Assembly: GCA_040754075.1 (NCBI GenBank) | Contig: JBFMDH010000040.1 | Coordinates: 1-63,007 of the forward strand | Length of the DNA stretch: 63,007 nucleotides | Direction: 5' to 3' | Source: Acidobacteriota bacterium | Lineage (GTDB): Bacteria; Acidobacteriota; Blastocatellia; UBA7656 | Position numbers and translations under genes: made by a program | Notes under the pieces: model-generated | Database searches by the model: none | What the model was told of the DNA's origin: nothing | What the model saw: the letters and a program-made list of their open reading frames with translations, nothing else | Part shown: positions 1 to 39,139 of the stretch, piece by piece | Numbering within the stretch: position 1 is the stretch's first letter | Layout: the number at the start of each line of letters is the position of its first letter

Positions 1-371
1 GTGGTCAATTGGTGTATCATAGATGGCATCAGGGATGTCCTCCGTAATTGAATTTGGCAAAATGATTTTATCAACTACGGTTCAAAACATCCCTTTCAAC
101 TTTTTCAACTCAATACTCAGGTTAAGTCAAAAGGCAAAAGTAAAAAGTGAAACCGGAGAAGCCAATCACCTGAAGGTTATCCGCCCAAGCCGAAGATAAA
201 CTTTTACCTCTGATTGGTGAGCAATTGATTAACCCAAAGTTGCCAGTTGCCCAATGCCCCGCAGTCGCAATTCAATGAGCTAAGACAAAACCGCTTGCCA
301 AACCCACTTGATATTCGCGACAAAGCATTTCAAAATACTCGCTCAATAAATCACGCACATTTAAATCAAGC
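1..371. other. Left-edge non-coding region
   Basis: No convincing plus-strand gene is visible before the first CRTAC1 gene. The stretch contains a short array of A-rich heptamers (129-156) that is the reverse complement of an array inside the next gene. A 44-codon minus-strand reading frame overlaps its right part. I see no clear promoter or Shine-Dalgarno site for the gene at 372. Confidence 0.4.
129..156. repeat. Heptamer array, left arm (AAAAGGC type)
   Basis: Four consecutive 7-bp units of the form AAAAGGC/AAAAGTA/AAAAGTG/AAACCGG. They are the degenerate reverse complement of the TTTGCCT units at 411-452. The two arms enclose about 250 bp, the same geometry as the other inverted heptamer pairs in this window. 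Confidence 0.6.
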
Positions 372-406
372 ATGAAACTTTGTAGCTCGCTTTTATCGGT
401 CATCAT
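272..406 (-). CDS. Possible 44-aa small protein, opposite strand to CRTAC1 start
   Basis: The frame starts with two ATG codons (406 and 403) and encodes a charged, helix-prone peptide beginning MMTDKSELQS and ending in FVLAH. I do not recognise it. It lies between the two inverted heptamer arms at 129-156 and 411-452, the position held by cargo genes in other cassettes of this window. It overlaps the proposed signal-peptide region of the plus-strand gene, so at most one of the two starts may be right. No clear Shine-Dalgarno is seen. Confidence 0.2.
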   Translation of the reverse strand: MMTDKSELQSFMLDLNVRDLLSEYFEMLCREYQVGLASGFVLAH

Positions 407-2195
407 TTCGTTTGCCGTTTGCCTTTTGTCTTTTGTCTTTTGCCTTTTGCCTTCTGAGGTTGTTGCCCAGCAAAATCCCAAACCACAAACCGGAAAATCT
501 TACAGCACGGCTGAACCACCCAAGCGCCAGAGCGCGCCGGTTCCCGAAGCGCCATCGCCCGTCACCTTCACCGATATGACTAGGCAATGCGGACTCGCGT
601 TCAAACATGCGGCATCACAGACCGCGCAGAAATATTTACTCGAAACCATGGGCGGCGGCGTTGCTCTGTTTGATTATGACAATGACGGGCGAATGGATTT
701 ATTTTTCGCCAACGGCGCATTGCTCACCGACCAGATGGCAAAAGATGCGCGCCCCGATAAACGCGATGCGAAATTCTGGAATCGCCTCTATCATCAAAAA
801 AGCGACGGCACATTTGAAGACGTAACCGAACGCGCAGGCGTCAAAGGCGAAGGCTATTCGATGGGTGTAAGCGTAGGCGATTATGACAACGATGGTTTCG
901 CAGATATGTATGTCACCGGTTACGGAGCCAACATTTTATATCGCAACAATGGCAACGGCACTTTTACGGATGTCACGAAATCGGCTCTGGTAGCCGCTTC
1001 CGGCTGGTCTACTTCGGCAGGCTGGCTCGATTATGACAAAGACGGACGACTTGATTTATTCGTCTGTCGTTACGTGGTCTGGGATTTCGATTTAGGTACG
1101 CTCTATTGTGGCGACATGCGACCGGGCTTTCGCGCTTATTGTCATCCCGACAATTTCAAAAGCCTGCCGAATATTCTCTATCATCAAAAAGCCGATGGGA
1201 CGTTTGAGGACGTAAGCGCGAAATCAAAGATCGGTGAACCGGGCGGCAAAGGGTTGGGCGTGGTGTTTGCCGATTTCGATAACGATGGTTGGACGGATAT
1301 TCTGGTCGCTAACGATAGCGTCCGCCAGTCGCTTTATAAAAATAATGGTGACGGGACCTTTGAAGACATCGCGCTTCCGGCAGGCGTGGCTTACGACGAA
1401 AACGGCAAAACCTTCGCGGGGATGGGCGTCGATGCGGCGGATTATAATGAAGATGGCAGCGTCGATATTTTTATGACGGCGCTCTCGAATGAAACCTATC
1501 CGCTCTATGAAAACAATGGCGACCACACGTTCACTTACGAGACCAACACGTCGGGCGTCGGACAAATCACCTTGCTCAATTCCGGTTGGGGGGCACGGTT
1601 CGTGGATTTGGATAACGATGGCTGGCGCGACATTTTTGTGGCGCAAAGCCATGTGCTTGATACCATCGAAAAGACTTCGAGTTATTTGAAATACAAACAG
1701 CCGCCCTTGTTTTTGCGAAACACCGGCAAAAATTTCGTCAGCGTGTCGGGTTCCGCAGGCGCGAGTTTCGCTGTAGCGATTGCGGCGCGCGGCGCAGCTT
1801 TCGGAGACCTGGATAACGACGGCGATGTTGATGTGGTGATGGGCACGCTCGACAGCGCGCCGCTGGTGTTGCGCAACAACGGCACGAAAAATCACTGGCT
1901 TGGATTGGCTTTAATCGGCACGAAATCGAATCGGCAAGGACTCGGTTCGCGTGTGACGGTTACGGAAGCGAGCGGGCGCAAACGCATTTTTGATATAACG
2001 ACGAGCGGCAGTTATTTATCGTCTAATGATGCGCGCCTGATTATCGGTTTGGGCGCGGCAACCGGCGTGAAAAATATCGAAATCAAATGGCCAAGCGGGC
2101 AACCCCAGTTGATAGAAAATCCCGCAATTGACCGCTATCACCAAATAAAAGAGACTGACCGTAAATTGTCCGGGAGGGTTGATCGTGAACATTGA
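372..2195 (+). CDS. Secreted CRTAC1-family protein (FG-GAP/VCBS repeats + ASPIC/UnbV)
   Basis: A 607-residue extracytoplasmic protein. Residues 1-32 form a signal peptide with a long L/F/V/C-rich core ending near VVAQQ. About seven calcium-binding repeats of the DxDNDGxxD type follow (for example DYDNDGRMDLF, DLDNDGWRDIF), as expected for an integrin-like beta-propeller. Residues of about 510-595 match the ASPIC/UnbV domain (HWLGLALIG, GSYLSSNDARL, IEIKWPSGQ). The family is thought to bind ligands or other proteins at the cell surface; no enzyme activity can be inferred. The core of the signal peptide is encoded by a heptamer array (411-452), and no Shine-Dalgarno precedes ATG 372, so the start is less certain than the rest. 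The end overlaps the next small gene by 11 bp. Confidence 0.85.
   Translation: MKLCSSLLSVIISFAVCLLSFVFCLLPSEVVAQQNPKPQTGKSYSTAEPPKRQSAPVPEAPSPVTFTDMTRQCGLAFKHAASQTAQKYLLETMGGGVALFDYDNDGRMDLFFANGALLTDQMAKDARPDKRDAKFWNRLYHQKSDGTFEDVTERAGVKGEGYSMGVSVGDYDNDGFADMYVTGYGANILYRNNGNGTFTDVTKSALVAASGWSTSAGWLDYDKDGRLDLFVCRYVVWDFDLGTLYCGDMRPGFRAYCHPDNFKSLPNILYHQKADGTFEDVSAKSKIGEPGGKGLGVVFADFDNDGWTDILVANDSVRQSLYKNNGDGTFEDIALPAGVAYDENGKTFAGMGVDAADYNEDGSVDIFMTALSNETYPLYENNGDHTFTYETNTSGVGQITLLNSGWGARFVDLDNDGWRDIFVAQSHVLDTIEKTSSYLKYKQPPLFLRNTGKNFVSVSGSAGASFAVAIAARGAAFGDLDNDGDVDVVMGTLDSAPLVLRNNGTKNHWLGLALIGTKSNRQGLGSRVTVTEASGRKRIFDITTSGSYLSSNDARLIIGLGAATGVKNIEIKWPSGQPQLIENPAIDRYHQIKETDRKLSGRVDREH
411..452. repeat. 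Heptamer array, right arm (TTTGCCT type), inside coding sequence
   Basis: Six perfect-phase 7-bp units: TTTGCCG, TTTGCCT, TTTGTCT, TTTGTCT, TTTGCCT, TTTGCCT. They are read as codons 14-27 of the CRTAC1 gene and supply most of its hydrophobic signal-peptide core. They form an inverted pair with 129-156. Confidence 0.8.
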
Positions 2196-17900: not shown

Positions 17901-19361
17901 ATGAAACTCAGCGAAATAATAAAAAGTATAAACGCGAACCTAAATGATGAAACGGTCGCTGAAAAATTTACCGCACAAGAACCGCTCGGTTATTCGATTG
18001 ATTCGCGCACCATTCGCGCAGGCGATTTATTCTTTGCCATCAAAGGCGAAAATCACGACGGTCATAATTTCGTCGCCGAGGTTTTACAAAAAGGCGCAAT
18101 CGCTGCGGTAATCAACAGGGATTCGGGATTCAGGATTCAGGATTCAGGATTGTTGATATTCGTTGACGATACGCTCGCGGCATTGCAGACGCTGGCAAAT
18201 CACCTGGTCACCAACTGGCGCGGGCAGTTGGTCGCGGTTACCGGAAGCGCCGGCAAAACCACCACCAAAGATTTAATCGCAGCGGTGCTTTCTGAGGTCG
18301 GTCAGGTCATTAAAACCCAGGGCAATTTCAATAACGCGATTGGTCTGCCGCTTTCGATACTCAAGATGGAAAGCGATGGACAGCACGCCGATGATTTCGA
18401 TTTCGGCGTGTTCGAGATGGGCATGAATCACGCGGGCGAACTCGCGGAACTCACACACATTGCGCCACCCGATGCTGTAGTCATCACCAATGTCGCCGCC
18501 GTGCATCTGGAATTTTTCGATTCCATCGACGCCATTGCAAATGCCAAAGCCGAACTGGTGCAAGGCACGAAAGCGGGCGGCGCAGCACTATTGAATATGG
18601 ACGACTCGCGCGTTGCGCGGATGCGCGCGTTGCGCGATGACCTTCGGGTTCGCACTTATGGCATTGAACAAAAAGCCGATGTGATGGCGAAAGATATTAA
18701 ATCGGATGGTCTCAGTGGCACAGAATTTTTACTCGTCACACCAGGCGGCGAAATCAACACGCGGCTGGCGCTTGTCGGCAAGCACAATCTCTACAATGCG
18801 CTTGCCGCAGCAACGGTCGGCGATTTTTATCAAGTCCCACTGGAAAAAATCGCTGCGGCATTTGCGGCAATCACCGCGCCGAAGATGCGCGGCGAAGTGT
18901 TACGTTTTGCCGAAGGCTACACGGTGATTGACGATTCCTATAATTCCAATCCGCGCGCGTTGATTGAAATGGTGACGACACTTTGTGCAACGCAAGGCTA
19001 CTCACGAAAAATTGTCGTTGCCGGTGAAATGCTCGAACTCGGCGAACGCGGAGCAGAACTACATTTTGAAGTCGGGCAAAAAATTGCGGCGCTTGGAGTG
19101 GATTTACTTTTGGGAGTTCGCGGACTCGCTGAACAGTTAATCGAAGGCGCGCGGGCTGCGGGAATGGCAGCAACAGCGGCGCGTTTTTTTGCAACACCCG
19201 CCGAAGCCGGAGAATTTTTAGCAACCCAGGCGCGAGCCTCAGACCTCATCCTCGTCAAAGGTTCGCGCGGCGTAAAAACCGAAGTAGTAGTTGAAAGAAT
19301 GAAAAAAAGAAGTCAGGAGTCAGAAGCCGGAAGTCAGAATAAGACGAAGTATGAAGTATGA
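17901..19361 (+). CDS. murF: UDP-MurNAc-tripeptide:D-Ala-D-Ala ligase MurF
   Basis: A 486-residue ligase that adds D-Ala-D-Ala to the muropeptide precursor. ATG 17901 (MKLSEIIKSINANL) fits family starts better than GTG 17862. The ATP loop is AVTGSAGKTTTKDL; VFEMGMNHAGELAELTHIA and VIDDSYNSNPRAL are MurF motifs. Two parts are built from heptamer repeats. One is a loop near residues 73-85 ([13 protein letters not shown]), encoded by the array at 18119-18153. The other is the C-terminal tail after about residue 470 (SQESEAGSQNKTKYEV). Both lie outside the catalytic motifs, so the enzyme should be active. Confidence 0.94.
   Translation: MKLSEIIKSINANLNDETVAEKFTAQEPLGYSIDSRTIRAGDLFFAIKGENHDGHNFVAEVLQKGAIAAVINRDSGFRIQDSGLLIFVDDTLAALQTLANHLVTNWRGQLVAVTGSAGKTTTKDLIAAVLSEVGQVIKTQGNFNNAIGLPLSILKMESDGQHADDFDFGVFEMGMNHAGELAELTHIAPPDAVVITNVAAVHLEFFDSIDAIANAKAELVQGTKAGGAALLNMDDSRVARMRALRDDLRVRTYGIEQKADVMAKDIKSDGLSGTEFLLVTPGGEINTRLALVGKHNLYNALAAATVGDFYQVPLEKIAAAFAAITAPKMRGEVLRFAEGYTVIDDSYNSNPRALIEMVTTLCATQGYSRKIVVAGEMLELGERGAELHFEVGQKIAALGVDLLLGVRGLAEQLIEGARAAGMAATAARFFATPAEAGEFLATQARASDLILVKGSRGVKTEVVVERMKKRSQESEAGSQNKTKYEV
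18119..18153. repeat. Heptamer array inside murF
   Basis: Five units: GGATTCG, GGATTCA, GGATTCA, GGATTCA, GGATTGT. With 7-bp units the protein repeats every seven codons. It is the reverse complement of the TGAATCC array at 19436-19463 just downstream of murF and is in the same sequence class as the arrays at 26741 and 39064. Confidence 0.85.
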
Positions 19362-19463
19362 ACGATGAAGGATGAACTGCAAGAATGATTGAATTGTTCA
19401 TCGTTCATCGTTCCGCCTTCCTCGTTTCTTTATTCTGAATCCTGAATCCTGAATCCTGAATCC
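19310..19463. repeat. Composite heptamer arrays at the murF-mraY junction
   Basis: Several 7-bp families follow one another: AAGTCAG-type (19310-19337), GAAGTAT/GAACGAT (19346-19373), their partial inverse GTTCATC (19396-19416), then four TGAATCC units (19436-19463). The murF stop (19359-19361) lies inside the second family, and the AGGAG of mraY (19466-19470) directly follows the last one. The arrays therefore supply both the MurF C-terminus and the edge of the mraY ribosome-binding region. Confidence 0.8.
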
Positions 19464-19473
19464 TGAGGAGACA

Positions 19474-23276: not shown

Positions 23277-23308
23277 ATTGCGGATTGCGGATTGCGAATT
23301 GCGGATTG
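23277..23308. repeat. Heptamer array, left arm of decayed cassette (ATTGCGG)
   Basis: ATTGCGG, ATTGCGG, ATTGCGA, ATTGCGG and a half unit. It is the reverse complement of 23822-23849. Confidence 0.9.
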
Positions 23309-23456
23309 AATGAATCTCCGCACAGCAAGCTGCGTGGTATTCGTCTAGCGGAAACTCTTTCGCAGCACGCTGCGGGGAACTAACCCCTGAGAGATTAGAA
23401 AACCCTTTCATCACTTTTCTGATTGCCAGCTAATATCATTTGGCTTTGGAGAAAAG

Positions 23457-23811
23457 ATGAATTCAGAGGAGATGAAAACAAGAACTAAGCTTTACGGGTT
23501 ACGAATCATCAAACTGGTTGAAAACTTATCCAAAAGCCGGACATCTGAGGTGGTTGGCAGGCAATTACTGAGATGCGGCACTCCGTCGGAGCAAATTACC
23601 GCGCATCTTGTAGAGCCAAGTCCAAAGCCGATTTCATAGCAAAATGGGAATCGTTGAAGAAGAGACGGATGAGTCGGTGTATTGGATGGAACTGTTAATT
23701 GACGCAAACCTGGTTAAAGAACAGCGAATTACCAACCTCATGGATGAAGGAAAACAGATGCTTGCTATCATTGTTTCATCAATCAGCACAGCCAGAGGTG
23801 GCAAACGATGA
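23457..23811 (+). pseudogene. Frameshifted four-helix-bundle protein (S23/IVP family)
   Basis: The first frame starts at ATG 23457 after GGAGAAAAG and encodes TRTKLYGLRIIKLVENL to VVGRQLLRCGT. One missing base near 23583 shifts the expected SVGANYRA core into another frame (GANYRASCRAKSKADFIAK is readable there). A second missing base in the A run near 23641-23644 returns the tail GIVEEETDESVYWMELLIDAN to a third frame, ending at TGA 23811. Joined, the three parts give a normal family member of about 118 residues. The family occurs in 23S rRNA intervening sequences and at many chromosomal sites; its molecular role is not well established. Two independent lesions argue for real decay rather than a sequencing slip. 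Confidence 0.85.
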
Positions 23812-23821
23812 GAAAAAAATT

Positions 23822-23849
23822 CCGCAATCCGCAATCCGCAATCCGCAAT
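23822..23849. repeat. Heptamer array, right arm of decayed cassette (CCGCAAT)
   Basis: Four perfect CCGCAAT units, the exact reverse complement class of the left arm, ending eight bases before the murG start codon. Confidence 0.9.
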
Positions 23850-23857
23850 GGTGAAGT

Positions 23858-24931
23858 ATGAGAATCATCATTGCGGCAGGTGGAACCGGCGGGCACATTT
23901 ATCCGGGCATAGCGATTGCCCATGAATTGAAACGGCGCGATGGCGATGCTGAGATTTTATTCGTTGGAACGCCGCGCGGACTGGAATCGAAAATCGTTCC
24001 CCGCGAAGGCTTCAAACTTGAGATGATTCAAGTCGGCGCGTTGAAAAATGTATCAACGGGCGAGCGCCTCAAGACCATGTTTCAATTGCCGCTCAGTTTC
24101 GTAACGGCATTAAAGATTTTGCGCCGCTTCAAACCCGATGTGGTCATCGGCGTTGGTGGCTATTCGGCAGGTCCGACACTACTGATGGCGGCGTTGTCGC
24201 GCATCCCGACGATGATTGTTGAACCAAACGCCATGCCCGGTTTTACCAATCGCGTGCTGGCGCGCTTCGTTGACGCGGCGGCGCTGTCATTTGACGAAGC
24301 GAAAGCTTATTGTCGCGGCAAAGGTGAGGTCACGGGCAATCCTGTGCGCAGCGATTTCGCGCAAATTCCCAAGAAAACGCGCGGTGAACGGCTTCACCTT
24401 CTGATTTTTGGCGGCAGTCAAGGGGCGCGCGCCATCAATACGGCGATGGTTGCAGCGTTGCCTTTGCTTGCGGCAAAAAAAGCGCAACTGGCAATTACTC
24501 ATCAAACCGGCGAAAAGGATTTTGAGATGGTCAAACAGGGCTACATTGAAGCGGGCTTTAGCGATGCCGATGTCCGACCGTTCATTCACGATATGGCGAA
24601 ACAATTCGCCAATGCCGATGTGTTGATTTGTCGTTCGGGCGCGACCACAGCAGCGGAAGTGGCAGCGGCAGGCAAAGCGGCAATCTTCATTCCCTTCCCG
24701 TTTGCCGCCGATGACCATCAACGCAAAAACGCCGAGGCATTTGAACGAGCGGGCGCGGGTCGAATGATTTTGCAAAAAAACCTGTCACCGGAAAAACTCG
24801 CTGAAGAATTACTGCGTTTGATTGAAACTCCGGCAGAGATTGATAAGATGGAAGCCGCGAGTCGCGCACTCGGACGCGCGGACGCGGCTCAGCGCACGGT
24901 TGATTTAGCTTTATCGGTTATTGGTCATTAG
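23858..24931 (+). CDS. murG: UDP-GlcNAc:lipid I N-acetylglucosaminyltransferase MurG
   Basis: A 357-residue peripheral membrane GT-B enzyme that converts lipid I to lipid II. Motifs: IIIAAGGTGGHIYPGIAIAHEL, VIGVGGYSAGPTLLMA, LIFGGSQGARAIN, CRSGATTAAEVAAAGK and IPFPFAADDHQRKNA. Its last codons and stop (VIGH, TAG 24929-24931) lie inside the GGTCATT array at 24916-24936, so the native C-terminus may have been replaced by repeat-encoded residues. Confidence 0.96.
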   Translation: MRIIIAAGGTGGHIYPGIAIAHELKRRDGDAEILFVGTPRGLESKIVPREGFKLEMIQVGALKNVSTGERLKTMFQLPLSFVTALKILRRFKPDVVIGVGGYSAGPTLLMAALSRIPTMIVEPNAMPGFTNRVLARFVDAAALSFDEAKAYCRGKGEVTGNPVRSDFAQIPKKTRGERLHLLIFGGSQGARAINTAMVAALPLLAAKKAQLAITHQTGEKDFEMVKQGYIEAGFSDADVRPFIHDMAKQFANADVLICRSGATTAAEVAAAGKAAIFIPFPFAADDHQRKNAEAFERAGAGRMILQKNLSPEKLAEELLRLIETPAEIDKMEAASRALGRADAAQRTVDLALSVIGH

Positions 24932-24936
24932 TCATT
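24916..24936. repeat. Heptamer array, left arm of intact cassette (GGTCATT)
   Basis: GGTTATT, GGTCATT, AGTCATT. It overlaps the murG stop codon and is the reverse complement of 25324-25344. Confidence 0.8.
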
Positions 24937-24953
24937 TGTAAAAAAGGAGTACG

Positions 24954-25328
24954 ATGATGAGTACCAGCTTTGAAAATTTACAAGTGTATAAATTATCTGA
25001 AAGATTGGCTGACGACATTTGGGAAATAGTCACGCAGTGGGATTTATTTGCCAAAGACACGGTAGGCAAACAAATCGTTAAGGCTGCCGACAGCATCGGT
25101 GCCAATATTGCCGAAGGAACCGGCAGAGGCAGTTATCAAGATAATCGTCGTTTCGTCAGAGTGGCGCGCGGCTCTTTATACGAAACCAGGCATTGGCTAA
25201 GGCGCGCTTATAAACGGCACCTTCTCAACGATGCGCAAATCAACAGCCTCAAGCCAATCATCAGTGAGGTATCGCCAAAACTCAATGCGTATTTACGATC
25301 AATTGGCGCGCCTTCTGAAAACCAATGA
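24954..25328 (+). CDS. Four-helix-bundle protein (S23/IVP, TIGR02436-like)
   Basis: A 124-residue intact member of the 23S rRNA intervening-sequence protein family. Recognised by FENLQVYKLSERLADDIW, KDTVGKQIVKAADSIGANIAEG, GRGSYQDNRRFVRVARGSL and YETRHWLRRAYKRHLL. AAAGGAG lies seven bases before the ATG. Members form a small pentameric helical bundle and are related to the accessory Avd protein of diversity-generating retroelements; no reverse transcriptase or template repeat is present here. Read in the same direction as murG and murC, it probably travels on the dcw transcript. Its stop codon lies inside the right heptamer array. Confidence 0.9.
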   Translation: MMSTSFENLQVYKLSERLADDIWEIVTQWDLFAKDTVGKQIVKAADSIGANIAEGTGRGSYQDNRRFVRVARGSLYETRHWLRRAYKRHLLNDAQINSLKPIISEVSPKLNAYLRSIGAPSENQ

Positions 25329-25344
25329 CCAATGACTAATGACA
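25324..25344. repeat. Heptamer array, right arm of intact cassette (AATGACC)
   Basis: AATGACC, AATGACT, AATGACA. It contains the stop of the four-helix-bundle gene and an in-frame ATG (25332) that could wrongly be taken as the murC start. Confidence 0.85.
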
Positions 25345-25358
25345 AAGGACCAACAGGA

Positions 25359-26741
25359 ATGTTTTTTAGAAGCGTCAGACACATTCATTTCGTAGGCATC
25401 GGCGGCATCGGGATGAGCGGCATCGCAGAGGTGTTGCTCGCCCTTGCGGCAAATTTTCGCATTACCGGCAGTGACGCCAAACGCTCGGCGATTACCGAGC
25501 GATTGGAAAAGATGGGCGCAACTATCTGGGAAGGTCATAGCGCCGACCACATCACAGGCGCGGACGTAGTGGTAACCTCATCAGCGATTCGTCAGGATAA
25601 TCCTGAAGTCGTCGCTGCACGTCAACGACAGATTCCCGTCATTCAACGCGCAGAGATGTTGAAAGAGTTAATGCGCCTCTATCGTTACGGCATCGCCATT
25701 GCCGGAACGCATGGCAAAACCACAACCACGTCGATGATTGCTCACGTGTTGCATAACACCGAACTCGACCCGACGGTGGTGGTCGGCGGTCGCGTCGCCT
25801 CGCTTGGCTCGAATGCGCGCATTGGCAAAGGCGAATATATCGTCGTCGAAGCCGATGAATCGGATGGCTCGTTGCTGCTGCTCACACCAACGATTACCGT
25901 GCTAACGAATATTGATGCCGACCATCTGGATTTTTTCACCGGCGGCATTGAACAGATAAAAAAATGCTTCACGGATTTTACCAATCGCGTGCCGTTTTAC
26001 GGGACGAATGTTTTATGTCTCGATGATGCGAATGTGCAGGCGATTTTGCCGGAAATTTCCCGGCGCATCGTCACTTATGGACTCGCGGCACAGGCAGATG
26101 TTTCGGCGTGGAATATTCAAACCCATAAAAGTTTCGGTTCCGAATTCACGGTTCGGGCTTTCGGCAAAGACTTAGGCACCATGCGCCTGAAAGTGCCCGG
26201 CAGACACAATGTCTACAATTCGCTTGCGGCAATCGCTGTCGGTTTGGATTTGAATCTTGAGTTCGAGCAAATTGTCGAAGCACTCGGTGAATTTGGCGGC
26301 GCTGAACGGCGCTTTCAATTTAAAGGCGAAGCCCATGAAATTCTGGTGGTTGATGATTACGGTCATCATCCGACGGAAATCAAAGCGACACTGGAAGCGG
26401 CGCGCACCGGCGGTCGCCGTGTCGTAGTGTTATTTCAACCGCATCGTTATACCCGCACCCGCGATTTGCTCGAAGACTTTGCGCGGTCATTTTATGGCGC
26501 AGATGTTTTGCTGGTCACGGATATTTATGCCGCCAGCGAAGACCCGATTGAAGGAATTACGGCTCAGACGCTTGCAGAAAAAATTGAGCGTTTTGGGCAT
26601 AGACACGTCGAGTACATTGGACAACTGGCAGGTGCAGCGCATAAACTAAAGGAAATCGCACAGCCCGGCGATTTAATTCTTACACTTGGCGCTGGCAACG
26701 TATATCAAGCAGGAGATGAGTTGCTAAGAATTTTGAATTAG
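25359..26741 (+). CDS. murC: UDP-MurNAc:L-alanine ligase MurC
   Basis: A 460-residue ligase that starts peptide-stem synthesis on UDP-MurNAc. ATG 25359 ([20 protein letters not shown]) matches the family start; the ATG at 25332 would add nine residues encoded mostly by the heptamer array. Motifs: [21 protein letters not shown] (ATP loop), [22 protein letters not shown] and [16 protein letters not shown]. An AGGA directly before the start is the only Shine-Dalgarno candidate. Confidence 0.95.
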
Positions 26742-26820
26742 GATTGAGGATTGAGGATTGAGGATTCAGAAGTACAGCCCCGTACTCTAATCTGAATCCT
26801 GAACCCCGAATCCTGAATCC
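26741..26820. repeat. Empty inverted heptamer element between murC and ftsQ
   Basis: GGATTGA x3 and GGATTCA (26741-26768), a 24-bp spacer with its own small inverted repeat (AGTAC/GTACT), then four TGAATCC-type units (26793-26820). The first base of the array is the last base of the murC stop codon. The spacer has no gene, so this resembles an empty version of the cassettes at 23277 and 24916. Confidence 0.85.
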
Positions 26821-26839
26821 TCAAGACAGAGGTTTCATC

Positions 26840-36685: not shown

Positions 36686-39061
36686 TCAGGCTTTTTCCAG
36701 CCCGGCAAATTTAGCGACGAATTTTTTCTGCCCGTAACCGGGAAAACTCACAGTCAATTTCGCTTCATCGCCGCTGCCTTCGACGCGCAAAATCATGCCA
36801 TAGCCATATTTCGCATGTTTGACACGCATACCGTTTTGCCAACCGGAACTTTTTTTAACCGGAGCCTTGCCGGTTCCCGGCTCCCGGTTCCCGGTTCCCT
36901 CTTTTCGTCCGGCTTCGTCAATGCGGCGTTTGAAAAATTGGTTGACGCTATCGACCGAGTTATAAGTTTTGCCGGAAAAGTTTGAACTCTTTTTCACAGG
37001 CGGCGGAGTTTCACCGCGCAAGGCAGCCGCCGCTTGACGATTGTGCTGCACCTCATCACGAGAAGCGAATTTCATCCACGACGGCACTAATGACACATCC
37101 TGTAATAATTCCAGCGGCAACTCATTTAAAAACCGTGACGGTTCGGCGGCAATCTCTTCGCCCCAGGTGCGCCGCTTCATGGCGTGGGTGATATACAGGT
37201 GTTGTTGCGCCCGCGTGATGGCGACATACATCAATCGTCGTTCTTCTTCCAAATCATCTTCGCTACTGACTGAACGCGAATGCGGAAAGAGATTTTCTTC
37301 AAGTCCGACAATGAACACCACGGGAAACTCCAAACCTTTTGCCGCGTGCATACTCATTAAGGTGACTTTCGCATCGGCTTTGTACTGGTCGGTATCGGCT
37401 ACGAGCGCCGCGTGGTCTATGAAATCCGTAAGCGTCTCTTGTTGATTTTCCGCTTCAACCGCAGCCGTCACCAATTCTTCGATATTGAACAAACGCCCGG
37501 TGGCTTCTTCGGAATTCTCTTCTTGTAAAGCACGAACATAGCTGGTATCCAAAGTCGCGGCTTTGACGATTTCCGAAAGCGGCTCGTTATTGTTGACGCG
37601 GTCACGCAATCCGTTAATCACCGCGCGAAAGCCTTCAAGCGCGAGCATGGCTCGGGCGTTCACTTTTTTCTCTTGAATGGCAATCGGAATCGCTTCCCAC
37701 CACGAAAGCTCCATATCTTTTTTTATCGCGTGAATCGCATCAAGCGTCGCTTTGCCGATGCCGCGCGCCGGTGAATTGATGATGCGCTCCAATGCCACAT
37801 CATCATTGGGATTCATCGCCAGTTTCAAATAGGCGATGATGTCTTTGACTTCGGCGCGTTCATAAAATGAAAAACCGCCGACGATGTTATAAGCGATGCC
37901 GCGACGGCGGCAGGCTTCTTCAAAAAGGCGCGATTGCGCGTTGGTGCGATAGAGCACGGCGCAGCGCGTGTGCGGGTCGCGTCTGATGTGTTCTTGAATT
38001 TTTTCAGCGACAAACGAAGCTTCGCCGTCGCCATCATAAGATTGATAGTAACGAATGCGCTCGCCTTCACCGAGATGCGGCGAAGCATAAAGGGTTTTCG
38101 GCAAACGTTGTTTATTGCGTTCGATGATTTGATTGGCAGCCGACAGAATAGTTTGGGTTGAACGATAATTCTGTTCGAGTTTGATGAGTTTGGCTTTTGC
38201 AAAATCGTTTTGAAAGTTCAAAGCGATTTTATAGTCTGCCGACCTGAAGGCGTAAATCGATTGATCAATGTCTCCCACGACACACAGACTGCGCCCTTTC
38301 CAGAATTCATCCGAATCAATTTTCGTGTGGTCAAGCCGCGATGAGCCGATGGCAAGCAAACGGATAAGTTCATATTGAATGGCGTTGGTGTCTTGAAATT
38401 CATCGACGCAAATGTGGCGGAATTTCTGATGATAATAATCACGCGCTTCCGGCACGCGCTTCAACAGTTCGACGGTTTTAATTAACAAATCATCGAAATC
38501 CATCGCATTCGATTGTGCCAGTCGTTGTTCATAATGTTTATAAACTTGCGCAATTTGATCGGTTCTCTCCGACGCATACTCGGCTTGACTGGCAAACGAA
38601 CCCGGCGATTGCCCGCGATTTTTTGCGCTGCTGATCACCGACATGGTCAACCGCGCGGGCAAAGCCTTATCGTCAATGCCAATCTCTTTCATGATGGTGC
38701 GGGCGACCCGCGCCTGATCATCCGCGTCATAAATCGTGAAGTTGCGAGTGTATCCCGCATTCATCTTTTCAACATCGCGCCTGAGCAGCCGCACACACAA
38801 GGAATGAAAAGTTGAAAGCAAGGGGGACGCGCTACGCCGCCCCGCGCCGAGCATTCTTTCGACGCGCTCTTTCATTTCCGACGCGGCTTTGTTGGTAAAG
38901 GTCACGGCGAGAATATTTTCAGGACGCGCGCCCTGTTCGATGAGATGCACGATGCGATAAGTAATGACGCGGGTTTTACCGGAACCGGCTCCGGCTAGAA
39001 TGAGCATTGGTCCTTCGATGGCTTCGACGGCTTCGCGTTGTTGTTGATTCAAATTGTCCAT
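36686..39061 (-). CDS. pcrA: ATP-dependent DNA helicase PcrA/UvrD
   Basis: A 791-residue superfamily 1A 3'-5' helicase for repair and removal of blocked replication or recombination intermediates. Walker A is LILAGAGSGKTRV (Lys29). CVDEFQDTNAIQYELI (motif II), VVGDIDQSIYAFRSAD (motif III), LEQNYRSTQTIL (motif IV), TLMSMHAAKGLEFPVVF (motif V) and RRLMYVAITRAQQHLY (motif VI) are all present. The C-terminus carries the Tudor-like domain of PcrA (GMRVKHAKYGYGMILRV). A linker before it (GTGNREPGTGKAP) is encoded by a heptamer array at 36872-36899. The ATG is next to another array. Confidence 0.96.
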   Translation of the reverse strand: MDNLNQQQREAVEAIEGPMLILAGAGSGKTRVITYRIVHLIEQGARPENILAVTFTNKAASEMKERVERMLGAGRRSASPLLSTFHSLCVRLLRRDVEKMNAGYTRNFTIYDADDQARVARTIMKEIGIDDKALPARLTMSVISSAKNRGQSPGSFASQAEYASERTDQIAQVYKHYEQRLAQSNAMDFDDLLIKTVELLKRVPEARDYYHQKFRHICVDEFQDTNAIQYELIRLLAIGSSRLDHTKIDSDEFWKGRSLCVVGDIDQSIYAFRSADYKIALNFQNDFAKAKLIKLEQNYRSTQTILSAANQIIERNKQRLPKTLYASPHLGEGERIRYYQSYDGDGEASFVAEKIQEHIRRDPHTRCAVLYRTNAQSRLFEEACRRRGIAYNIVGGFSFYERAEVKDIIAYLKLAMNPNDDVALERIINSPARGIGKATLDAIHAIKKDMELSWWEAIPIAIQEKKVNARAMLALEGFRAVINGLRDRVNNNEPLSEIVKAATLDTSYVRALQEENSEEATGRLFNIEELVTAAVEAENQQETLTDFIDHAALVADTDQYKADAKVTLMSMHAAKGLEFPVVFIVGLEENLFPHSRSVSSEDDLEEERRLMYVAITRAQQHLYITHAMKRRTWGEEIAAEPSRFLNELPLELLQDVSLVPSWMKFASRDEVQHNRQAAAALRGETPPPVKKSSNFSGKTYNSVDSVNQFFKRRIDEAGRKEGTGNREPGTGKAPVKKSSGWQNGMRVKHAKYGYGMILRVEGSGDEAKLTVSFPGYGQKKFVAKFAGLEKA
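36872..36899. repeat. Heptamer array inside pcrA (GGTTCCC)
   Basis: GGTTCCC, GGCTCCC, GGTTCCC, GGTTCCC. It lies in the flexible linker before the C-terminal domain, where extra residues are tolerated. Confidence 0.85.
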
Positions 39062-39063
39062 GA

Positions 39064-39139
39064 GAATTCAGGATTCAGGATTGAGGATTCAGGGCGGGAT
39101 GGCAGCTTAACTGAATCCTCAATCCTGAATCCGCAATCC
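39064..39139. repeat. Empty inverted heptamer element between pcrA and the isochorismatase gene
   Basis: GAATTCA, GGATTCA, GGATTGA, GGATTCA (39064-39091), a 20-bp spacer, then TGAATCC, TCAATCC, TGAATCC, GCAATCC (39112-39139). It fills the gap exactly, from just upstream of the pcrA ATG to the stop codon of the isochorismatase-family gene (39139-39141). Same heptamer class as 26741-26820. Confidence 0.9.

Follow-up and report, generated by a model that had tools for sequence, protein, structure and literature searches.

Why do two small genes of the S23/IVP four-helix-bundle family lie inside a cell-wall operon, each framed by inverted arrays of short repeat units? The question is raised by a stretch of 63,007 nucleotides (the window; contig JBFMDH010000040.1) from the 7.58 Mb genome of an Acidobacteriota bacterium (G000). 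A first-pass annotation had noticed one such gene between ftsW and murG (cassette 1) and one between murG and murC (cassette 2), and had read both as mobile units. The observation was confirmed and is more general than stated. We consider it probable (roughly 0.6) that both cassettes belong to a class of small, intragenomic mobile elements which is widespread and whose S23 protein helps copying. The existence of such a class, array-armed, S23-linked and mobile, is well supported, and it is apparently undescribed so far. It is carried by the arm-gene-arm architecture and by three correspondences: between array unit and protein, between gene-less arrays (satellites) and resident cassettes, and between S23 content and array load. 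It is further carried by one duplication from arm to arm and by orthologous sites that differ between genomes.

Architecture of the cassettes and their relatives

The inverted arrays were confirmed at both junctions (coordinates in Table 1); the arms of cassette 2 are imperfect. Cassette 1 comprises 573 nt between ftsW and murG and consists of an array, a gene remnant and an inverse array, its arms being 96% complementary across 25 nt. In cassette 2 the stop codon of murG (24929-24931) falls inside the left arm. In predicted RNA folds the arms of both cassettes pair and enclose the gene (z −5.5 and −2.7).

The assignment of both genes to the four-helix-bundle proteins held for gene 2, which is intact. 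It matched PF05635 with an E-value of 2.7e-29 (101.9 bits compared to a curated cut-off of 33.8). The model of its domain (pLDDT 96.3) fitted the S23 structures 2gsc and 2rld, with a query-normalised TM-score of 0.94 to chain E of 2gsc. Weaker matches were obtained with Avd (4dwl) and with the Avd-like chains of a diversity-generating retroelement (DGR) ribonucleoprotein. Both S23 entries contain five chains, which we take to be pentamers. Gene 1 is not intact, which the first-pass annotation had missed. Close relatives align with it in different frames (23475-23585 and 23620-23769), thus the gene carries a frameshift or the assembly contains an error. The piece in the first frame (23457-23636) gave no Pfam match, and gene 1 was not among the 13 matches of the genome-wide PF05635 profile search. 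It was assigned to S23/IVP through similarity to relatives; its pieces are 58-64% identical to the intact counterpart that G001, a genome of another genus, has at this site.

Relatives of gene 2 (the best 80 of 193) were found in Acidobacteria, Cyanobacteria, Planctomycetes, Lentisphaerae, Bacteroidota, Chloroflexi and Thioalkalivibrio. In the inspected records S23/IVP genes were annotated only as "four helix bundle protein" or "S23 ribosomal protein". Gene 2 also has relatives on nine cyanobacterial plasmid records. Three of these were inspected and showed arrays on both sides, on one side and on neither side, respectively. A link to phages was rejected, since gene 2 had no match in a phage collection at an E-value of 1e-3.

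The generality of the arms was determined with 146 S23 loci: 13 from G000, 24 from its family, 29 from a draw of the phylum and the 80 loci of the cassette-2 clade. PF05635 matches were present in 58 of 119 genomes drawn from the phylum, and each of the 29 top-scoring ones besides G000 contributed its best match to the phylum draw. Under a strict rule, which demanded mutually inverted arrays on both flanks, 93 of the 146 loci scored, compared to 10 of 1,480 control open reading frames (ORFs) called mechanically in three S23-rich genomes and possibly including S23 genes (6/686, 1/390 and 3/404). The first-pass expectation that arrays flank S23 genes more often than other ORFs was thereby borne out. 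The strict counts were 10/13 in G000, 20/24 in the family, 20/29 in the phylum sample and 43/80 in the cassette-2 clade; positions further off in the latter loci gave 0/278. Under a lenient rule (an array with a score of at least 10 within 250 bp of the S23 gene) an array was detected in 125 of the 146 loci, including 12 of the 13 in G000. Arrays of the same period stood on both sides in 100 loci, and in 95 of them the right arm was closer to the inverse than to the direct copy of the left arm. The unit had 7 nt in 91 of the 125 loci, 8 nt in 25, 9 nt in 4 and 10 nt in 5. Thus, the units are mostly the 7-bp units described before, and the term heptamer is too narrow. Median arm lengths were 3.8-4.6 units, as measured with a detector biased to longer arrays.

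Of 138 S23 genes, 126 pointed the same way as their upstream neighbour; among large ORFs from these genomes the figure was 382 of 559 (p 7e-9, with S23 loci partly related by descent). This fits a transcription-dependent insertion, or selection, together with a step at the RNA level.

Individual loci deviate from this layout. In L085 (Nostoc sp. FACHB-152) the arm seems to be reversed relative to the gene, unlike in most of the cassette-2 clade. In L047 (G044) the arms carry different units, TAGAGGA on the left and CCCAACC on the right; perhaps it is a recombined or mixed cassette.

Array units, S23 proteins and gene-less hairpins

Protein similarity predicts the array unit, a statistical link that was measured on the 91 period-7 loci. 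After 49 pairs with homologous flanks had been dropped from 4,095, the remaining 4,046 pairs gave a Mantel r of −0.43 between unit distance and protein identity (null sd 0.033, 2,000 permutations). In gene orientation the mean unit distance was 3.6 below 20% protein identity, 2.4 at 60-80% and 1.2 above 80% (5 pairs); in flipped orientation it did not drop with protein identity. The loci L001-L069 alone yielded r −0.20 (0 of 5,000 permutations). Unit length also followed the protein: the nearest protein relative had a unit of equal length in 107 of 125 loci (null mean 71, maximum 92).

Within the cassette-2 clade the units drift round one core. When up to one mismatch was allowed, the core GTNATT, which was picked after the units had been seen, fitted 56 of this clade's 66 units in gene orientation, compared to 5 of 66 in flipped orientation and 3 of 59 units of other clades. 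Octamers are used by the "ANLAEAWRKRR" proteins L007, L008 and L026 and by others. In Mucilaginibacter 11 of the 12 loci with a detected array use an octamer; L120 has period 7. Arrays of period 10 were observed in L117, L134, L135, L136 and L138 (Bacteroidota, Ignavibacteria, Chlorobiota). The L135 unit, GTCATTGATT, represents the GTNATT core with wider spacing.

The unit of cassette 1 can be followed through the phylum. ATTGCGG arrays occurred in 13 of the 119 genomes, 12 of which are among the 33 with a cassette-1-type protein at an E-value of 1e-3; the protein match is weak in G102 and G101, both of which have an ATTGCGG array. This co-occurrence is significant overall (p 4e-7) and within S23-positive genomes (p 0.004). 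None of the 61 genomes without a PF05635 match contained an ATTGCGG array.

Several units coexist in one genome. Besides GGTCATT, the cassettes of G000 carry, gene by gene, GGCAGTA, CGGTAGC, CTGAGGA, GAGTCTG, AGTGATG, TGTACTT, AAGGCAA and ATGAACG, a 9-mer in L003 and the octamers AGAAGGGG and GAAGAGGT, the latter on one side only. No arms were detected at L011 (G000:C24:4842-5150). In 858 kb of G000 we counted 88 arrays of period 7 and 12 of period 8 with a score of at least 12, and 0-4 arrays for periods 4-6 and 9-13. The same DNA after shuffling, which here and below preserved base composition only, had no array of period 7 or 8.

Many arrays have no gene. In G000, G006 and G002 an inverted partner lay within 220 bp of 60/110, 34/73 and 29/63 gene-less arrays, respectively (random places: 0, 1 and 0). 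Adjacent pairs of the same unit were inverted 20, 16 and 13 times and direct 0, 3 and 7 times. Only 29/110, 21/73 and 34/63 gene-less arrays lay inside long ORFs, which make up 81-83% of the DNA; thus, they are under-represented there. AACGATG hairpins stand within AATCCTG arrays at three places that are near-identical, and within ACTCCAG arms at one. Nesting of this kind has the appearance of one hairpin inserted into another.

The satellites resemble the resident cassettes. Their unit was identical to that of a cassette from the same genome in 43/110, 27/73 and 7/63 cases (G000, G006 and G002). Equal-sized sets of foreign cassettes gave means of 11.3, 1.4 and 0.7 matches, and none of 400 draws each reached the own value. 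With one mismatch allowed the own matches rose to 68, 28 and 22; of 400 foreign draws each, 0, 4 and 0 attained these values. The unit donors were 12 cassettes for G000 (14 known including cassette 1), 5 for G006 (14 PF05635 matches) and 5 for G002 (6 matches). The detector supplied these units except for L009 and cassette 1, whose units were added manually. Array load was shown to track S23 content in 13 sampled genomes. Arrays of period 7-9 were absent from 240 kb of three genomes without S23 genes and numbered 3 in 240 kb of three genomes with one S23 gene; seven genomes with at least 6 S23 genes contained 112-488 per Mb. The mobile-unit reading of the first-pass annotation was therefore widened: gene-less hairpins with the same units belong to it. 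The window also contains gene-less inverted pairs that had not been listed, such as the one at the murC end (Table 1).

Mobility, mechanism and rival explanations

Orthologous sites were compared using MurG as anchor in 28 of 29 genomes, G000 included; G131 was left out due to a weak hit. Searches with tblastn revealed S23 genes at the two junctions in 2 of the 28 genomes, G000 and G001. The empty junctions that a mobile element should leave were thus found in 26 of 27 relatives, as far as the S23 gene is concerned, and in G001 both sites are occupied. Eleven of the 26 relatives carried gene-less arrays at one or both junctions. At murG-murC the protein of G001 is 70% identical to that of the window, and a G001 protein encoded elsewhere is 82% identical. 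Consequently, a replacement or an independent insertion at this junction is possible.

Variation was also seen at other sites. The G006 cassettes L019 and L029 match each other from arm to arm (447 bp, 95% identity), and their flanks are unrelated. A swap was seen between G036/G049 and G074, where flanks of 96-98% identity enclose different S23 genes and different arms (ACCTGGG and AGCCTCG). Part of the start of the neighbouring gene differs as well, so ordinary recombination with a diverged copy is a possible cause. G074 and G049 lack an octamer cassette that G036 has: their left flanks match that of G036 (98% and 96% identity, respectively), and other gene-less arrays are present beside them; the right flank resumes in G074 (98%) and was not seen in G049. 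At one intergenic site with flanks of 68-74% identity, G005 and G006 have S23 cassettes of different types, and the only element there in G000 is a gene-less hairpin made of the L003 9-mer. L003 itself, a cassette of G000, is absent from the orthologous site of G006 (flanks 66-71%). Judged from these alignments, cassettes appear to duplicate or swap as arm-to-arm units. The array association, the arm-to-arm duplicate and the site differences all support the mobile-unit reading.

A number of observations weigh against it, or against the role given to the protein. The presence of S23 cassettes at both sites in another genus means that the insertions of the window are not recent, and it goes part of the way to the refutation that the first-pass annotation had named. 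Several pairs of relatives share cassettes by descent, and transposition was never observed. The relatives from Pseudanabaena and Mucilaginibacter, chosen for having S23, mostly co-inherited their cassettes and offered no informative empty sites. No target-site duplication was recognised by eye at L019/L029, the sole clean duplicate. In gene 2 no catalytic domain was found, PF05635 being the sole Pfam match. No array of score 10 lay within 250 bp in 21 of the 146 S23 loci. Three armless genes from Scalindua (L121, L131 and L139) have flanks common by descent and may be domesticated. The downstream neighbour showed no significant bias in orientation (87/119 compared to 386/592, p 0.11). Unit distance was independent of protein identity within L070-L149 (r −0.006), so the overall correlation mostly reflects differences between clades. 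G115 has an ATTGCGG array without a matching protein at an E-value of 1e-3, and with one mismatch allowed 4 of the 400 foreign sets equalled the own value of G006. Finally, AATCCTG, the commonest gene-less unit of G000 (window, contigs C1 and C3), had no S23 partner among the G000 cassettes found. A cassette with this unit is present in G005 (L020); a search with the G005 protein carrying AATCCTG as query revealed no partner in G000.

We picture the proposed element as follows. An autonomous copy would be an S23/IVP (Avd-like) gene, usually in the direction of the upstream host gene, between two arrays inverted to each other, in each of which a 7-10 nt unit linked to the protein subclade is repeated about 4-5 times. 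Gene-less copies would be hairpins built of cassette arrays. The protein, probably a ring, may bind the array as single-stranded RNA or DNA, in the preferred picture with roughly one array unit per subunit. TRAP, a ring that binds RNA triplets, one per subunit, serves as a model for this reading of an array. The protein would help its own cassette and, in trans, the gene-less hairpins to get copied by host enzymes; copies would land in transcribed intergenic gaps, and the arms would stay matched by one being copied from the other in a hairpin intermediate. In its full form, the proposal describes elements with no recognised transposase, recombinase, endonuclease or polymerase of their own, in which a ring protein reads a clade-specific 7-10 nt unit code in array hairpins and spreads cassette and satellites through many bacterial phyla, and of which 23S rRNA intervening sequences and several heptamer families known for long are facets. 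To this full form we give slightly less than even chances. The data suggest one explanation for S23/IVP genes, 23S intervening sequences and intergenic heptamer repeats, and render it testable through a unit code that is specific to the protein and visible in genome sequences. DNA or RNA would have a novel mode of spreading if copying were driven by a protein that itself has no catalytic domain.

Alternatively, the arrays could be RNA hairpins bound by S23 (terminators, RNase III sites or stabilisers), with the dispersed hairpins as a regulon and S23 as a regulator that travels with its sites. Such a regulator would account for the common direction with the upstream gene, the predicted RNA stem around the gene and the scarcity of gene-less arrays in long ORFs. 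It sits badly with cassette sites that vary between relatives, with unrelated cassettes at one site in different genomes, with different units in the cassettes of one genome and with the nested hairpins. We regard it as unlikely.

Mobilisation of the hairpins by a Y1 transposase (IS200/RAYT type) or a reverse transcriptase encoded elsewhere, with S23 as passenger or helper, seems more unlikely still. The comparison covered the families Y1_Tnp and RVT_1, and both are more frequent in S23-positive genomes (Y1_Tnp 43/58 compared to 28/61 in S23-negative genomes, RVT_1 28/58 compared to 10/61). However, among genomes with 6 or more S23 genes RVT_1 is absent from 9 of 22 and Y1_Tnp from 2 of 22, where drafts may miss genes, and G017, with 7 S23 genes, has matches to neither. 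Thus, a reverse transcriptase is not obligatory, and an obligatory Y1 transposase is likewise unsupported. The matching of unit and protein would also remain unexplained.

The third alternative, in which S23 genes insert into pre-existing repeats born by slippage, we consider highly improbable. Tandem heptanucleotides have been reported from many bacteria (PMC4679880), and the gene-less arrays at the junctions of S23-less relatives would suit as docking sites. Slippage, though, gives no inverted pairs, and the excess of inverted over direct neighbours given above led us to reject slippage alone. Moreover, the unit goes with the protein clade across phyla, the sole clean duplicate includes the arms and the sampled S23-less DNA is array-free. 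Ordinary operon genes under vertical inheritance with incidental repeats, for which the occupied junctions of one other genus and the cassettes common to several pairs of relatives speak, have next to no probability in view of the association, unit, satellite and site data.

Related systems and further arrays of the window

The closest functional likeness is to the REPIN-RAYT system, in which doublets of repetitive extragenic palindromes (REPs) form hairpins and are accompanied by a REP-associated tyrosine transposase (PMC3116915). Short repeats flank the gene there too, the flanks of the resident gene recur in hairpins without a gene, and several families occur per genome, mostly outside genes. 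The differences lie in the partner, a tyrosine transposase as opposed to a four-helix bundle without known catalytic domain, and in the arm, one short palindromic REP as opposed to a tandem array of 7-10 nt units. In addition, the relatives of one S23 clade are spread over many phyla. By analogy, the S23-array system would work like REPIN-RAYT without being one, the tyrosine transposase being missing.

In Coxiella, the 23S rRNA intervening sequence (IVS) is reported to contain GACAGAT heptamers ahead of the S23p start codon, three in tandem or, in some strains, two, and the IVS with its S23p ORF has been called a selfish element (PMC4990558). The IVS resembles the cassettes in its protein family and in having the gene within a stem formed by terminal inverted repeats, although the ORF of cassette 1 is broken. 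RNase III excises IVSs, which are located in rRNA genes, whereas the cassettes of the window lie between cell-wall genes and are for this reason not IVSs. Gene-less satellites and unit-protein matching are features of the S23 cassettes that are absent from the examined parts of that paper. Nevertheless, the tandem heptamers of Coxiella suggest that 23S rRNA IVSs may be a special case of the S23-array class, members that landed in rRNA. ORFs of PF05635 have also been described within rRNA insertions of bacteria of the candidate phyla radiation (PMC11270868). We also considered whether S23 genes of our sample lie in rRNA; no Rfam hit was obtained in the 18 of 80 cassette-2-clade loci scanned, which had been picked for lacking clear arms of period 7 or 8 and several of which have period-10 arrays.

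The likeness of PF05635 and Avd has been pointed out before (PMC10053308). Avd of DGRs has the same fold as the S23 protein (4dwl, 8ub7), and the S23-rich genomes lacking RVT_1 mentioned above would set the cassettes apart from DGRs. Cyanobacterial heptanucleotide repeats include short tandemly repeated repetitive (STRR) sequences. Beggiatoaceae have heptanucleotide repeats TAACTGA, which are, like the S23 arrays, intergenic tandem heptamers in many copies, and which are reported mainly as direct, with a possible regulatory role (PMC4679880), whereas the S23 arrays are inverted. The main text of this source contains no occurrence of "S23", "four helix", "23S" or "intervening sequence". STRR and TAACTGA repeats could be the gene-less part of the S23-array system. 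In the open-access literature searched, we found no link of S23 genes to unit arrays except for the heptamers of the Coxiella IVS.

The features of the window are listed in Table 1.

Table 1. Cassettes and further unit arrays of the window
Feature	Coordinates	Strand	Unit or basis
Cassette 1, left arm	23277..23308	+	ATTGCGG array, about 4.5 units
Cassette 1, four-helix-bundle gene, frameshifted remnant	23457..23812	+	similarity to relatives
Cassette 1, right arm	23821..23849	+	CCGCAAT array, about 4 units
Cassette 2, left arm	24911..24936	+	GGTCATT/AGTCATT array
Cassette 2, S23/IVP four-helix-bundle gene, intact, 124 aa	24954..25328	+	PF05635
Cassette 2, right arm	25321..25350	+	AATGACC/AATGACT array
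Inverted arrays, 256 nt apart	124..453		AAAAGGC-type, unit of cassette L012
Single array	18118..18151	+	AATCCTG unit
Gene-less hairpin, AAGTATG/AACGATG arms	19346..19466		unit of G000 cassette L013
Gene-less inverted pair at murC end	26740..26821 (26740-26766/26792-26821)		AGGATTG array / TGAATCC-type array
Single array	36870..36899	+	AACCGGG unit
Gene-less inverted pair	39066..39139		AATCCTG-type unit

The whole window contained 15 arrays of period 7, and three simple shuffles of it yielded 0, 1 and 0. For the remaining periods between 4 and 13 the count was 0-4 arrays, and period 14, a multiple of 7, gave 13. At the AAGTATG/AACGATG hairpin an AATCCTG array (19435-19466) lies outside the hairpin on one side.

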